Source: Sphingomonas arenae (GTDB taxonomy: Bacteria > Pseudomonadota > Alphaproteobacteria > Sphingomonadales > Sphingomonadaceae). Taken from it: a stretch of DNA of 64,000 bases. This document shows positions 29,830-34,175 of this stretch, in pieces. The notes below the pieces were generated by a model that worked only from the letters and a program-made list of their open reading frames with translations, ran no database searches and was not told where the DNA came from. The stretch's first letter is position 1. Every line of letters begins with the position of its first letter. The stretch lies in the NCBI RefSeq assembly GCF_016924655.1, contig NZ_JAFFJU010000002.1, positions 310,001 to 374,000 on the forward strand, read 5' to 3'. A program made the position numbers and the translations under genes.

Positions 29830-30921
29830 CTAAGCTGCCTGCTCTCCCTCGAGCAGCTTGTGCCGCTTCAACGCATGCCGCAGCTGGTCATAGCTAAGGT
29901 TCAGCGCCGCCGCCGTGGCGCGTTGGTTGTAGCGGTTGCGGGCCAGCGCATCCTCCAACAGCGCACGCTCGTAGGACGTCACCGCCGCGCGGAAGTCGCT
30001 CGTGGTCACCGACCCTGCCGCAGGAGCGACCGGCACTGGCGCTGTCGGCTCCTCCTCCGACCCGGTCACATCCCTCGCCGGCGCGTCGGCAACGATCGTC
30101 TTCCCCGGTGCCCACGGGGAGGAGAAGGGATCGAACTGGATGGCGTCGATCGGCCGCTCCGGATCGTCCCAGCGATACACGGCCCGTTCGACCACGTTGC
30201 GCAACTCCCGCACGTTCCCGGGCCAATTATAGCCTTCAAGCTCACTCATCGCCTGGCGCGTGAAGCCGGGCCAACTCGGCCAGTCGAGTTCGACCGCCAT
30301 GCGTCGACCGAAATGCTCCGCAAGCAGCGGAACGTCCCCCTGGCGCAGCCGCAGCGGCGGCAGGGTCACGACCTCGAAGCACAGGCGGTCCAGCAGGTCC
30401 GCCCGGAACTTGCCCTGGTCGACGAGTCGCGGGAGATGCTCGTTCGTGGCGGCGACGATCCGGACATCGACCTTGACCGGCTTCGATGCGCCGATGCGCG
30501 TGACTTCCCCATATTCGACCGCCCGCAGCAGCCGGTCCTGCGCTGGCGACGACAGCGTGGCGAGCTCGTCGAGGAAAAGCGTGCCGCCATCGGCCTCCTC
30601 GAACCGGCCGTGGCGGGTCTTGGACGCGCCCGTGAACGCTCCGGCCTCATGCCCGAACAGCTCCGCCTCGATCAGATTCTCGGGCAGCGCCGCGCAGTTC
30701 ATCGTGACCAGCGGGCCAGCCCAGCGGGACGACAAGTGGTGCAGGCGCTCCGCGATAAGTTCCTTGCCGGTGCCGCGCTCACCGATCACCAGCACCGGCC
30801 GGTTGAGCGGCGCTGCACGGCTGGCACGCTCGACCGCGTCGAGGAAAGCAAGGCTTTGGCCGATGAAGGACTGGGTCCGCTCCACGCCAAAGAGTTGGTG
30901 CAGATTCCCGAGGCTTGGCAA
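29830..30921 (-). CDS. pspF: sigma-54 activator PspF
   Basis: AAA+ enhancer-binding protein that turns on the psp operon from sigma-54 promoters and is held inactive by PspA. The protein has no receiver domain: it begins with a short lead (SFIGQSLAFLDAVERASRAA), then Walker A GERGTGKE, the GAFTGA loop, Walker B GGTLFLDE, and ends in a Fis-type helix-turn-helix (NRYNQRATAAALNLSYDQLR). The longest frame starts at TTG 30921; alignment to E. coli PspF suggests GTG near 30885 as an alternative, and no ribosome binding site decides. It is divergent from pspA with the sigma-54 promoter between. Confidence 0.95.
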   Translation of the reverse strand: MPSLGNLHQLFGVERTQSFIGQSLAFLDAVERASRAAPLNRPVLVIGERGTGKELIAERLHHLSSRWAGPLVTMNCAALPENLIEAELFGHEAGAFTGASKTRHGRFEEADGGTLFLDELATLSSPAQDRLLRAVEYGEVTRIGASKPVKVDVRIVAATNEHLPRLVDQGKFRADLLDRLCFEVVTLPPLRLRQGDVPLLAEHFGRRMAVELDWPSWPGFTRQAMSELEGYNWPGNVRELRNVVERAVYRWDDPERPIDAIQFDPFSSPWAPGKTIVADAPARDVTGSEEEPTAPVPVAPAAGSVTTSDFRAAVTSYERALLEDALARNRYNQRATAAALNLSYDQLRHALKRHKLLEGEQAA

Positions 30922-30987: not shown

Positions 30988-31003
30988 TGGCACGAACCCT
31001 GCA
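30988..31003 (+). promoter_or_regulatory. sigma-54 promoter of the psp operon
   Basis: tggcacgaaccctgca matches the -24/-12 consensus TGGCAC-N5-TTGC, with GG (30989-30990) and GC (31001-31002) separated by exactly ten bases. It lies 47 bases before the pspA start and downstream of the divergent pspF, as expected for PspF control. Confidence 0.9.
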
Positions 31004-31049: not shown

Positions 31050-31718
31050 ATGAGCATCTTTTCCCGGACACGGGACATCATGGCAGCCAATTTCACGGAG
31101 CTGCTCGACCGGTCGGAAGACCCCAGCAGGATGATCCGCATGATCATCCTGGAAATGGAGGAGACGCTGGTCGAAGTCCGTGCATCGGCCGCGCGCTCCA
31201 TTGCGGATGCCAAGGAAATGCGCCGGGCGATCTCCCGGCTCGACGGGCTGACCGAAAGCTGGACCGAGAAGGCCGAACTGGCTCTGAGCAAAGGCCGCGA
31301 GGATCTCGCGAAGGCGGCGCTGATCGAGCGTCAGAAGGCCGCCGACATGGCCAAGGGGCTCGAAGCCGAAATCAAGGTCGTCGACGACACGCTGAAGAGC
31401 TATGAAGCGGACATCGCCAAGCTCCAGTCGAAACTGCGTGAGGCGCGGGCTCGGCAGAACGCATTGGCGACCCGGATGGAGAGCGCCGTGACCCGCGCCA
31501 AGGCCCGCGAAGTGCTGAACGGAAGCCGGACCGAAGACGCGTTCAGCCGCTTCGAGCTGCTGGAGCGCCGGGCGGACTTCGCAGAAGGGCGGGCCGAGGC
31601 TCTCGGAATGACTGGACCCAAGAGTCTCGAGGAAGAGATCGCCGAACTTCGTGCCGAAGAAGCGGTCGACGCGGAACTGGAAGCATTGAAGGCCAAGCTG
31701 GCCGGCAAGGGGAAGTAA
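31050..31718 (+). CDS. pspA: phage shock protein A
   Basis: Peripheral membrane coiled-coil protein of the PspA/IM30/ESCRT-III family. It binds stressed membranes and inhibits PspF. At 222 aa it is full length: an amphipathic N-helix (MSIFSRTRDIMAANFTELLD), EDPSRMIRMIILEMEETLVEVR, long heptad coils, then EEEIAELRAEEAVDAELEALK. First gene after the sigma-54 promoter; pspB follows three bases later. Confidence 0.97.
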   Translation: MSIFSRTRDIMAANFTELLDRSEDPSRMIRMIILEMEETLVEVRASAARSIADAKEMRRAISRLDGLTESWTEKAELALSKGREDLAKAALIERQKAADMAKGLEAEIKVVDDTLKSYEADIAKLQSKLREARARQNALATRMESAVTRAKAREVLNGSRTEDAFSRFELLERRADFAEGRAEALGMTGPKSLEEEIAELRAEEAVDAELEALKAKLAGKGK

Positions 31719-31721
31719 GGT

Positions 31722-32051
31722 ATGGAAACTGGGGAATTTCTCGCCCTGTGCGTCACATTGGGCATTCTCTTTATCGGTCTGCCATGGCTGATCTTTCACT
31801 ACATCACCAAGTGGAAGACCGCTGCGACGCTCACGTCCGGGGATGAGAAGCTGCTCGACGACCTCCACGACCTCGCCCGGCGGCTGGATGACCGGCTGTG
31901 CTCGATCGAGCGCATCATGACTGCCGAGAACCCGAACTGGCGTCAGCAGTGCCTGCCGGAATCCTCTCGCTTGCTCGGGACGGATCGCAGCCTCGACGAG
32001 GATCTGGGCAGGATCCGCACCAACGCACCCACTAGCAGGGAGTATCGCTGA
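31722..32051 (+). CDS. pspB: phage shock protein B
   Basis: Small membrane partner of PspC in the Psp response. Residues 5-28 form a membrane helix (FLALCVTLGILFIGLPWLIF). Then comes HYITKWKTA and a coil with LARRLDDRLCSIERIMTAENPNW, the usual PspB coiled-coil followed by PNWR. Length 109 aa is longer than E. coli PspB (about 74) because of a 35-residue polar tail. The RLxSIERIMTAE stretch is the same motif that recurs in the next four proteins. Stop and pspC start overlap as TGATG. Confidence 0.92.
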   Translation: METGEFLALCVTLGILFIGLPWLIFHYITKWKTAATLTSGDEKLLDDLHDLARRLDDRLCSIERIMTAENPNWRQQCLPESSRLLGTDRSLDEDLGRIRTNAPTSREYR

Positions 32052-32440
32052 TGCCGACCCAGCCTCCGAGCAGGACGCGCTTCTACCTCGACAAGCGCAA
32101 TGGAAAGGTGATGGGCGTTTGCTCCGGCGTCGCCGACTATACCGGGTTCGACGTCACCCTCGTCCGCATCATCTTCGTTGCCGCGGTGCTGATGGGCAGC
32201 GGTATGCCGCTCCTCATCTACCTCATCGCCGGCATTGTCGCGAAGGACAAACCTTCTGAACTGCGGAGCGGCGATCCGGAAGAGGAGCGCTTCTGGCAGG
32301 GCGTGCGCCAGTCGCCGGCCCGCACCGCTCGCGACATCCGCTCCCGTCTTCGCGACATCGACCGGCGCCTCGGGGATGTCGAGCACTACGTCTTGACCGA
32401 AAATCGCTCGCTCGCCCGCGAGATCGAGCAACTGCGTTAA
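32051..32440 (+). CDS. pspC: phage shock protein C with C-terminal coiled-coil motif
   Basis: Inner-membrane sensor of the Psp system, 129 aa. The PspC domain spans about 8-66 (FYLDKRNGKVMGVCSGVADY, then VRIIFVAAVLM and IYLIAGIVAKDKP). A cytosolic tail ends with RRLGDVEHYVLTENRSLARE followed by IEQLR (106-129), closely resembling the tails of the three downstream proteins. PspC normally binds PspA or PspB; the shared tail could be a mutual binding site. Translationally coupled to pspB. Confidence 0.93.
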   Translation: MPTQPPSRTRFYLDKRNGKVMGVCSGVADYTGFDVTLVRIIFVAAVLMGSGMPLLIYLIAGIVAKDKPSELRSGDPEEERFWQGVRQSPARTARDIRSRLRDIDRRLGDVEHYVLTENRSLAREIEQLR

Positions 32441-32455
32441 GGAAGGGCACGACCA

Positions 32456-32767
32456 ATGTTTCCATTCGAGACCTTCGCACCCGTGGCTGCGATCGTAGGC
32501 TTGGCTGCAGTGATTGGCTGGGTCGTCACGACCTGGATGCGGATCAAACACGGTTATCCGCTGGAGGGTTCGTGGGGCCAGCAGGTTCACCCGAGCAGCA
32601 GCAAGGAATCGCAGGAGCGGATCAAGCTGCTCACCCAGGAGAACGCTCAGCTGAGGGCGGAGATCAGCTCGGTCAAGGACCGGCTCGCCACCGTGGAGCG
32701 GATCGTGACCGATGAGAGCCACCGCCTGGCTCGCGAGATCGACAGCCTCGCCATCACCAAGAACTGA
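32456..32767 (+). CDS. Psp-operon small membrane coiled-coil protein 1
   Basis: Not a named family. 103 aa: membrane helix at about 8-28 (APVAAIVGLAAVIGWVVTTW), a basic/aromatic turn (MRIKHGYPLEGSWG), then a coil from 52 with LLTQENAQLRAEISSV and the motif DRLATVERIVTDESHRLARE (75-94) before IDSLAI. The same motif is at the end of PspC and the next two proteins. The position 15 bases after pspC, with aaggaag as ribosome binding site, makes it part of the psp transcript. The topology resembles PspB. Role in the Psp response is inference. Confidence 0.85.
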   Translation: MFPFETFAPVAAIVGLAAVIGWVVTTWMRIKHGYPLEGSWGQQVHPSSSKESQERIKLLTQENAQLRAEISSVKDRLATVERIVTDESHRLAREIDSLAITKN

Positions 32768-32775
32768 GGTCGGCC

Positions 32776-33054
32776 ATGAACAATATCGCCAGCTGGATCT
32801 GGGTCCTCATCCCCTTGGCTGCAATCGGCATCGCACCGTTTCGCATGTGGCTCCGCCTCAAGGAAAAACAGCTTGATCGGCAATCCGATCTGGCGGCGGA
32901 GAAGGCGGCGCAATATGCTTCGCATACGGCAGAGCTGGAGCAGCGGGTCCGGGTGCTCGAACAGATCGTCACCGACCGCGGCTTCGACACCGCCGCCCAG
33001 ATCGAGGCCCTGCGCAGCACGCCGGCCCGCAAGACGGAAGAAAGCGTAAGATGA
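32776..33054 (+). CDS. Psp-operon small membrane coiled-coil protein 2
   Basis: Unnamed 92-aa protein. Membrane helix about 5-24 (ASWIWVLIPLAAIGIAPF), a basic stretch with LRLKEKQLDRQ, then a coil with TAELEQRVRVLEQIVTDRG (51-69) and AAQIEALR (73-80), matching the motif of its neighbours. The C-terminal 12 residues are polar. Eight bases separate it from the previous gene, and it overlaps the next by ATGA. Same family logic as the preceding entry. Confidence 0.85.
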   Translation: MNNIASWIWVLIPLAAIGIAPFRMWLRLKEKQLDRQSDLAAEKAAQYASHTAELEQRVRVLEQIVTDRGFDTAAQIEALRSTPARKTEESVR

Positions 33055-33299
33055 ACCCCTTCGAGTTCGTACTTGTCCTGATGCTGATGATCTTCGGCTT
33101 CACGATCATCAAGCACCGCATGGGCATCACGTCGCGCGGCGACAAGGCCGATCGCATTCCCGCCGGTCCCGACCCCGAGAAGCAGCAACTCCTGCAGGAG
33201 GTTCGCCAGCTCAAGGAACGCGTGCAGGTGCTCGAGCGGATCACGGTGGAGAAGGAAAACTCCCTCGCGAGGCAGATCGAAGAGCTTCGCGACCGTTAA
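33051..33299 (+). CDS. Psp-operon small membrane coiled-coil protein 3
   Basis: Unnamed 82-aa protein. Membrane helix about 3-20 (PFEFVLVLMLMIFGFTII), basic loop KHRMGITSRGDKADR, then QQLLQEVRQLKERVQVLERI (45-64) and NSLARQIEELRDR (70-82). The motif is the last element of the protein, as in PspC. The ATGA overlap with the previous gene and a single base before sufE make the chain continuous. Confidence 0.85.
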   Translation: MNPFEFVLVLMLMIFGFTIIKHRMGITSRGDKADRIPAGPDPEKQQLLQEVRQLKERVQVLERITVEKENSLARQIEELRDR

Positions 33300-33300
33300 G

Positions 33301-33753
33301 ATGGGTGACGCTGCAGGCGAGAGCGACTATCTCGCCCGCGTGACCACCCTCCCCCGCCTCCCCGACGTCCTCGACGATTATGAGCTGCTCGACAGCGAAG
33401 AGCGCTACCGGCTCCTGATCGACCTCGGCCGCACGCTCGAACCCATGCCCGATGCGCTGAAAACCGACGCTACCAAGGTGCGCGGCTGCTCGGCCTCCGT
33501 GTGGGTCTATCCGACGCGGCTCGACGATGGCCGGCTGCACTTCCTGGCCGACAGCAATGCGGCGATCACCAAGGGCATCGTGGCGCTGGTCCTGAGCGCC
33601 GTGCAGGACCGAACCCCTGAAGAGATCGCGACCACCGACATCGCGCAGCAACTCGCGCCGTTCGAGCTTTCCCGTCAGCTGTCGTCCAACCGCACCCAAG
33701 GCGTCCCCAACATGATCGCCCTCATCCAGGACACGGCGAAGCGCTACCGGTGA
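33301..33753 (+). CDS. sufE: SufE family protein
   Basis: Sulfur acceptor for the SufS cysteine desulfurase in Fe-S cluster assembly. The 150 aa show LLIDLGRTLEPMPDALK, the active-site Cys in VRGCSASVWVY, ADSNAAITKGIVALVLSAV and the late LSSNRTQGVPNMIALI. It starts one base after the third small psp protein and overlaps the thioesterase start. A link to Psp stress through iron-sulfur repair is possible but not shown by sequence. Confidence 0.94.
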   Translation: MGDAAGESDYLARVTTLPRLPDVLDDYELLDSEERYRLLIDLGRTLEPMPDALKTDATKVRGCSASVWVYPTRLDDGRLHFLADSNAAITKGIVALVLSAVQDRTPEEIATTDIAQQLAPFELSRQLSSNRTQGVPNMIALIQDTAKRYR

Positions 33754-34175
33754 GCGAGGGGTTCGATCCGGAGCGCTTCTTCCAGCTGGCGCGGAAAGTT
33801 GGGCACGGCAGGGCGCTGGGCCTCGAATATCATTCCAAGGGTGACAACTGGGTGGAACTCGCGCTTCCCTGGCGCGAGGAATTGGTCTCCCTGCCGGAAA
33901 CCGGCGTGATGGCCAGCAGCGCCATCGTCAGTCTGATCGACACGTGCAGCGGCACTGCCGTGTGGCAGCGGCTCGGCGGATTTCGCCATATCGCGACCAT
34001 GGACCTGCGGCTCGACTACCTTCGGCCGTCGGTCCAGGGCGAAACGGTGATCGCCCGCTGCGAGTGCTACAAGCTCACCCGCCGGGTCGCCTTCGTCCGT
34101 GGCGTGGCCCACGGCGGTGATCCGGATCGGCCCATCGCACATAGCGCCGCGACCTTCATGATCCGCGACGACTAA
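33750..34175 (+). CDS. PaaI family hotdog thioesterase
   Basis: Acyl-CoA thioesterase of the hotdog fold, 141 aa. The start is GTG 33750, overlapping the sufE stop. KVGHGRALGLEYHSKGDNWVE opens the core; the helix VMASSAIVSLIDTCSGTAVW and strand ATMDLRLDYLRPS follow, matching PaaI-type proteins (the usual catalytic Asp/Glu region is SLIDTCSG). Substrate unknown. Last gene of the psp-sufE run; a convergent DnaJ gene begins 3 bases later. Confidence 0.9.
   Translation: MSEGFDPERFFQLARKVGHGRALGLEYHSKGDNWVELALPWREELVSLPETGVMASSAIVSLIDTCSGTAVWQRLGGFRHIATMDLRLDYLRPSVQGETVIARCECYKLTRRVAFVRGVAHGGDPDRPIAHSAATFMIRDD

Follow-up and report, generated by a model that had tools for sequence, protein, structure and literature searches.

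The locus presented here is compared with the psp operon of Escherichia coli. When its leucine zipper is mutated, E. coli PspC no longer binds PspA and psp is not fully induced, and a zipper mutant of PspB keeps its contact with PspC and loses that with ArcB; an interaction between PspA and PspB was not seen, as reported in the available part of that study (PMC3068692). Two topologies of PspC are discussed there for E. coli, and the same excerpt cites work that first placed the C terminus of E. coli PspC in the periplasm, as well as a proposal that the C terminus of Yersinia PspC receives its signal in the periplasm (cited in PMC3068692).

The initial annotation of the DNA analyzed here described known Psp systems as limited to PspB and PspC, a statement that passes over pspD and pspE of the E. 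coli operon and the PspB duplicates mentioned by Ravi et al. (2024, PMC11237479). In the accessible text of that paper, PspB duplicates in psp operons are given one clause, PspC–PspB fusions are also recorded, and AOL22920.1 is a named example. Multiple PspA and PspC paralogs are mentioned in the excerpt available from Popp et al. (2022, PMC9239133). The available portions of the Zymomonas transcript papers name psp genes only within ZMO1061-1065 and report induction within ZMO1062-1065, that is, pspABC and a gene called pspD, with no array gene of the kind described below (PMC3495753, PMC8645129, PMC8237431).

The locus described here belongs to Sphingomonas arenae (Sphingomonadaceae) and lies in a stretch of 64,000 nucleotides, called the window. 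Behind pspC it carries three further genes for small proteins, P1, P2, and P3, which are members of a row of related genes termed the array. Like the array, the duplicates of Ravi et al. are extra PspB-like sequences in psp operons; unlike it, they are mentioned in the clause available without an array, copy number, classes, family distribution, loss of pspB, or a second locus (PMC11237479). A description of the array was not found among the titles and abstract starts listed in searches of the open-licence PMC literature, taken without supplements.

Organization of the psp Locus

The window is part of contig C2 of a 2.76-Mb genome. The pspF gene lies on the minus strand, divergent from the plus-strand psp row and 128 nt from pspA, and the row runs pspA, pspB, pspC, P1, P2, P3, a sufE-like gene, and a hotdog thioesterase gene (Table 1). 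Its junctions, in order from pspA, are a 3-nt gap, a 1-nt overlap, gaps of 15 and 8 nt, a 4-nt overlap, a 1-nt gap, and a 4-nt overlap. The five genes originally read from this DNA, encoding PspB, PspC, and three unnamed proteins of 82-103 aa, were recovered with the same positions and lengths, and the motif strings quoted for them are literally present in PspB, PspC, P1, P2, and P3.

Table 1. Features of the psp locus in the window and of the second psp locus in the same genome
Feature	Position	Strand	Remarks
pspF, sigma-54 activator	29830..30921	-	TIGR02974 492.4 bits vs cut-off 443.55
sigma-54-type -24/-12 promoter TGGCACGAACCCTGCA	30988..31003	+	11/12 consensus positions; starts 62 nt upstream of pspA ATG
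pspA	31050..31718	+	TIGR02977 262.7 bits vs cut-off 242.95
pspB, C-terminal extension past PspB domain	31722..32051	+	TIGR02976 77.7 bits vs 51.7; motif RLCSIERI 31893-31916
pspC, motif in C-terminal tail	32051..32440	+	TIGR02978 118.3 bits vs 104; motif RLGDVEHY 32366-32389
P1, 103 aa	32456..32767	+	helix 4-32 (hydrophobic, probable TM), GYPLE..WG linker, helix 48-102; motif RLATVERI 32681-32704
P2, 92 aa	32776..33054	+	single predicted helix 3-81, hydrophobic N-terminal part (probable TM); motif RVRVLEQI 32944-32967
P3, 82 aa	33051..33299	+	hydrophobic N-terminal segment and coil; motif RVQVLERI 33219-33242; start overlaps P2 end by 4 nt
sufE-like gene	33301..33753	+	1 nt behind array; PF02657 E=7.2e-36
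hotdog thioesterase	33750..34175	+	overlaps sufE by 4 nt; PF03061 E=3.7e-10
pspA2-pspC2-P4 locus	own genome C1:130602-132030 (L002:831-2259)	-	pspA2 259 aa, pspC2 136 aa

The curated NCBIfam cut-offs are passed by PspA, PspB, PspC, and PspF, and no Pfam or NCBIfam cut-off is reached by P1, P2, or P3. Below these thresholds, P1 matches the PspC model TIGR02978 (positions 62-121, E=1.6e-4, 21.6 bits against a cut-off of 104) and has no PspB match in Pfam or NCBIfam. The NCBIfam PspB model TIGR02976, with its cut-off of 51.7 bits, is matched by P2 (E=0.0013, 19.0 bits) and P3 (E=0.004, 17.4 bits), which score 14.8 and 14.6 bits, respectively, with PF06667 (cut-off 25.6).

Kinship of the Array Proteins With PspB and PspC

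Family profiles were compared by HHalign from alignments of 25 rows for P1, 20 for P2, and 25 for P3 (window and relatives), with two kinds of control, namely one profile of each pair reversed and seven PspA coil segments. The pairs P1-P2, P1-P3, and P2-P3 score 98.4%, 98.9%, and 98.3% against 6.6, 4.5, and 0.6% after reversal. A search of the own 2.76-Mb genome with the P3 profile returned P3, P1 (1.5e-9), and P2 (1.2e-6), followed by a next match at E=0.138; PspC came up no better than noise (E=0.49), and no match up to E=10 was PspB. In the same genome, the P1 query recovered itself, P3 at E=0.024, and the PspC tail at E=0.67, with nothing further up to E=1. Because the scores of 98-99% stand against low reversed controls and agree with the own-genome searches, P1, P2, and P3 are, by profile comparison, one family of paralogs.

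PspB and the PspC tail are likely relatives as well, though less firmly shown to be so. With PspB, the scores are 86.5% for P1 (reversed 0.9), 71.6% for P2 (2.2), and 7.4% for P3 (2.7); with the PspC tail, they are 95.7% for P1, where the reversed 45.7 is a poor control value, 58% for P2 (2.6), and 89.6% for P3 (3.0). PspB and the PspC tail score 17.7% with each other. The reversed controls stay at or below 6.6% in 14 of the 15 pairs, with P1 against the PspC tail as the exception, and the maximum for the PspA coil segments is 36.6% (vs P3). Since reversed profiles and PspA coils score far lower, a motif that is mere coiled coil was rejected among P1-P3; the same reading is not fully rejected by these scores for P3 and PspB, for PspB and the PspC tail, and for P1 and the PspC tail with its high control. 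The shared motif first seen by eye in all five proteins thus stands for P1-P3, which align better than the reversed and PspA-coil controls, and is weaker in its link to PspB and PspC.

The C-terminal pattern of the array is R(V/I/L)xxLExI(V/A)TD...L..EIExLR. The stretch L..EIE.L behind the motif is common to PspC and P1-P3, whereas PspB has E.PNW(R), here ENPNW, at that place. In several features, PspB (PF06667, TIGR02976) is like the array, with a hydrophobic N-terminal segment, positive residues after it, a helix, and a place in the same operon, and P1-P3 fall below its curated cut-offs. The distance from the TM to the motif R(I/L)xxLExI is also similar, with medians of 33 residues in PspB, 37 in P2, and 34 in P3; it is 51 in P1. 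Common to the PspC tail (TIGR02978) and the array is the motif, after which come a turn of V(T) type and another L..R.I..L-like stretch; E. coli MG1655 shows this order as well. PspC differs by its PspC domain, which the array proteins lack, as no PF04024 match was found in them. Both PspB (RIQALESILDAEHPNWRDR) and the PspC tail (RLREMERYVTSDTFTLRSRFRQL) of E. coli MG1655 show the same motif pattern, so the motif is an old Psp feature and not an innovation. E. coli PspD resembles the array proteins in its small size and its place after pspC and differs in having no such motif by eye. Searches of the PDB gave no convincing relative of solved structure; one gave 12 matches up to E=1, the best of which, a potassium channel at E=0.0059, was not believed, and another gave none.

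Predicted Topology

In the AlphaFold2 models, P1 forms two helices joined by the conserved linker (mean pLDDT 76.4, pTM 0.33) and P2 a single one (pLDDT 80.7, pTM 0.35); as single-chain helices, the models hold little information on partners. Lysine and arginine together average 2.2-3.8 per class in the 15 residues after the hydrophobic segment and 0-0.3 before it. Because positive residues follow the segment and nearly none precede it, an N-out/C-in topology is predicted for the array proteins. The assignment of an N-terminal membrane helix and a coil to each unnamed protein agrees with the predicted helices of P1 and P2 and with the hydrophobicity, charge pattern, and motif spacing of P1-P3.

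Conservation and Variability in the Sphingomonadaceae

The P1 query found matches in 231 of 296 genomes of the order. By hand count, P1 is matched with E no higher than 0.01 in 201 of the 213 genomes of the same family, taken to be the Sphingomonadaceae, and in 188 of these with E no higher than 3.4e-10; 30 of 83 genomes of other families have a match, all weak (best E=1.4e-5); these family counts treat 45 unlisted misses as lying outside the family. An expansion unique to the window was therefore rejected, the array genes being present in relatives of the family.

Forty psp loci were selected by their P1 match, so that finding one or more array genes in them is circular. Further array genes follow pspC in 40/40, and the automatic caller gives three array genes in 8 loci, four in 10, five in 15, six in 6, and eight in 1, counts that are low by one at L073 (P1 frame outside the length limits) and L074 (P1 interrupted). 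L053, on a contig as long as that of the window, was counted as another genome, since the corresponding stretch of the own genome has no similarity to it. A fair test of linkage is offered by the 25 family genomes in which P1 is absent (12) or weak (13), as 21 of them have PspB (hand count). All of the 20 loci taken from these 21 genomes (G210 was left out) show the order pspB, pspC, array genes, sufE, with one array gene in 4 loci, two in 5, three in 5, and four in 6 (hand count). Array genes thus adjoin pspABC in relatives even where the locus was chosen for a weak or absent P1. Together with the window and three loci without pspB (L169-L171, chosen through a P3-profile match), at least one array gene, and up to eight, lies after pspC at 64/64 psp loci examined. 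The three added copies of the initial annotation are hence real as three extra genes in the window and are one state of an array of 1-8 genes.

On the motif block, P1 (39/39, support 0.91) and P4 (36/36, support 0.999), a terminal class found in 36/40 of the P1-selected loci and absent from the window operon, form clean clades, and P2, P3, and the classes before P1 (P0, PX) are mixed, under class labels that are rule-based and approximate and, for L073 and L074, unreliable. At the level of substitution rates, P1-P3 are shown to be under purifying selection, with dN below dS in all nine pairs computed and dS near saturation. The values are dN 0.07-0.33 vs dS 1.5-2.2 for P1 pairs, 0.22-0.46 vs 1.7-2.0 for P2 pairs, and 0.38-0.47 vs 0.8-1.5 for P3 pairs.

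The iron-sulfur gene sufE is kept behind the psp operon, in 39/40 P1-selected loci (L057 ends first) and 20/20 loci of the fair test.

Promoter and Predicted Control

The pspF-pspA regions were scanned with the sigma-54 -24/-12 consensus. Sites scoring at least 11 occur in 29/38 regions, the window included, and in 0.3% of shuffled regions; the other 9/38 have no site of 11 or 12 by the same scan. The own genome encodes sigma-54. With a conserved place behind pspFABC and a predicted sigma-54-type promoter, P1-P3 count as members of the Psp operon.

The interval before pspA varies in content. A frame of ~50 aa with a hydrophobic N-terminal segment lies between the sigma-54 site and pspA in L036, L040, L045, L054, L060, L063, L073, and others, and in L051, L056, and L070 the frame before pspA has ~170-190 aa and is TonB-C-like by eye. 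The window, with 62 nt from promoter to pspA, has no room for an extra frame.

Operons Without pspB

L052 (Novosphingobium marinum), L169, L170, and L171 show no PspB match in the interval from pspA to pspC, and array genes are kept in all of them (3, 3, 3, and 2, respectively). L171, whose assembly consists of 40 contigs, encodes a coil-less PspC (89-residue frame), and pspF is not matched within 1.8 kb upstream. At L169-L171, more than pspB has changed, because neither sufE nor P4 was matched in the stretch examined there either. A strict dependence of the array on PspB was rejected, given that the P3 profile finds matches in three (G146, G186, G053) of four genomes of the family where PspB is not matched; in the fourth, G266, the P3 profile finds no match either. 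Read with caution, these sequences suggest that the array proteins, with a PspB-like body and a PspC-like end, may outlive the parts that they resemble.

The Second psp Locus and P4

P4 keeps company with psp genes elsewhere in the genome, and its loss from the genome of the window was rejected, as it sits at a second psp locus, pspA2-pspC2-P4 (Table 1). Both pspA2 (TIGR02977, 230.1 bits vs 242.95) and pspC2 (TIGR02978, 66.1 vs 104) score below the equivalog cut-offs. P4 has no NCBIfam match, and in HHalign it scores 92.2% with P3, 65.8% with P2, 18.4% with P1, and <1% with PspB and the PspC tail.

P4 was detected in 59/61 genomes of the genus. Among the best 30 P4 loci of the genus, the own one included, pspC2 adjoins P4 in 30/30 and pspA2 lies within 1.5 kb of it in 25/30; no sufE match was found within 1.5 kb at these 30 loci and no pspB match near pspA2-pspC2-P4 at the genus loci inspected. 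In the own genome, the region upstream of this second locus holds a weak sigma-54-like site (9/12).

The genome also encodes a third PspA/IM30 family protein (252 aa; G000:C1:323444-323965) near LemA-like and M48-peptidase-like genes (names by eye), with no array gene by eye in the surrounding 5 kb.

Occurrence Outside the Family

The PspB profile matches 23/240 genomes of the class, 21 of them over the cut-off. Among 18 PspB-positive genomes outside the family, 17 have no motif-bearing small TM protein by eye in the 1.5 kb after pspC. In the remaining genome, G468 (L174:2748-3314), two extra genes stand behind pspFABC, one for a protein like the PspC tail and one for a PspB-like protein (PF06667 E=1.3e-8), an expansion that is smaller and possibly independent.

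With the P3 profile, 7/385 genomes of the class match at an E value of 1e-4 or lower, and five of the seven belong to the family. In G476, which belongs to another family, a pair of P3-like genes lies next to genes resembling dut and coaBC (names by eye; L172, C1:484500-491000), ~81 kb from pspB and not at its psp operon, and G330 gives a partial P3-profile match. The class-wide P1 profile matches 7/289 genomes, namely four of the family, G476, and, weakly, G329 and G575. The G329 match, just behind pspB, is probably a PspC tail, and the G575 match lies in a 154-residue frame of different build.

Functional Interpretation

The array is a real, conserved extension of the Psp operon. Its members appear to be small stress-operon proteins present in most family genomes examined and unnamed in Pfam and NCBIfam, because P1-P3 reach no cut-off of either library and P4 has no NCBIfam match.

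We give an even chance to the reading in which P1-P3 are extra membrane docks that share the zipper role of PspB and PspC, recruit PspA, and relieve PspF. A tandem-duplicated family would combine a PspB-like N terminus (one TM, N-out/C-in, a cytoplasmic helix) with a C terminus like the PspC tail. Under PspF/sigma-54 control, its proteins would be co-produced with PspA, PspB, and PspC and would associate with them and with each other in the membrane, so that the array would present several copies of the zipper surface by which PspC contacts PspA in E. coli. Such docks may recruit PspA to the stressed membrane and help to pull it off PspF, and they would overlap PspB enough to replace it in some species. 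We infer the topology, hetero-oligomers, PspA binding, PspF release, and stress response of the array proteins.

This reading is favored by the paralogy of P1-P3, their psp linkage, an array kept without pspB, the company of P4 and pspC2, the promoter, the motif spacing and charge pattern, the behavior of the zipper mutant of E. coli PspC, and the alignment of the E. coli PspC tail with the array motif. Against it stand the link to PspB and PspC on short coils, with weak P3-PspB and PspB-PspC tail scores and a high reversed control for P1 with the PspC tail, the P3-profile search of the own genome that did not recover PspB, the G476 homologs away from psp, the absence of both PspB and P3-profile matches from G266, and the multiple changes at L169-L171. 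In E. coli, moreover, no contact of PspA with PspB was seen, ArcB is the partner served by the PspB zipper, and the C terminus of PspC has been proposed to be periplasmic in E. coli and Yersinia, as far as the available excerpt and its citations go (PMC3068692).

The ArcB result bears on a different proposal, in which the array proteins are alternatives to PspB, each with a zipper that docks its own signaling protein upstream, so that a wider range of stresses reaches PspC and PspA without the array binding PspA itself. The E. coli PspB zipper mutant that keeps PspC and loses ArcB would fit it, according to the part of the study available (PMC3068692), as would the strong variation of the array between species and the clean P1 and P4 clades beside unclean P2 and P3, as changing partners would give. 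The C-terminal half of the array proteins, however, resembles the PspC tail and is lacking in PspB, and we consider diversified inputs possible and rather doubtful. The predicted hydrophobic and long helices of P1 and P2 and the varying mix of classes would also suit a purely structural part, with coils that hetero-oligomerize into membrane patches holding PspA polymers, on the effector side and without a transcriptional role. The weak sigma-54-like site of the pspA2-pspC2-P4 locus points the same way, but an array kept where pspB is gone suggests the takeover of a PspB-like task, which makes a scaffold unlikely.

Least probable, and quite improbable in our view, is that the proteins have no Psp function and are small membrane coils that share the operon, perhaps linked to sufE and the thioesterase or neutrally duplicated. 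The direct run of the window array into these two genes (1-nt gap, 4-nt overlap) and the G476 homologs away from psp are consistent with it. Against it speak dN below dS in every P1-P3 pair, the kinship with PspB and PspC, the presence of P4 beside pspC2 without a sufE match (30 loci), and three psp loci in which the array persists and no sufE is matched close by.

On a bolder and tentative view, which we would not call probable, the Sphingomonadaceae made a modular, combinatorial membrane dock out of the switch formed by the two proteins PspB and PspC. One to eight partly interchangeable coil anchors would sense membrane damage and control PspA and PspF, also without PspB; stress specificity would be tuned by the number of copies and the mix of classes, with pspA2-pspC2-P4 as a parallel module.

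PspB duplicates in psp operons were already known from the text available of Ravi et al. (2024, PMC11237479); the array, its classes, the pspB-less loci, and the second locus appear to be new. The multiplied PspB-like genes are natural variants of the system by which PspB and PspC pass the signal to PspA. If the array proteins are docks as proposed, a well-studied stress sensor would have been rebuilt as a multi-part assembly in one large bacterial family. In the species that have no PspB and keep its relatives, evolution may show which part of the coil is essential, and this could be tested by swapping.
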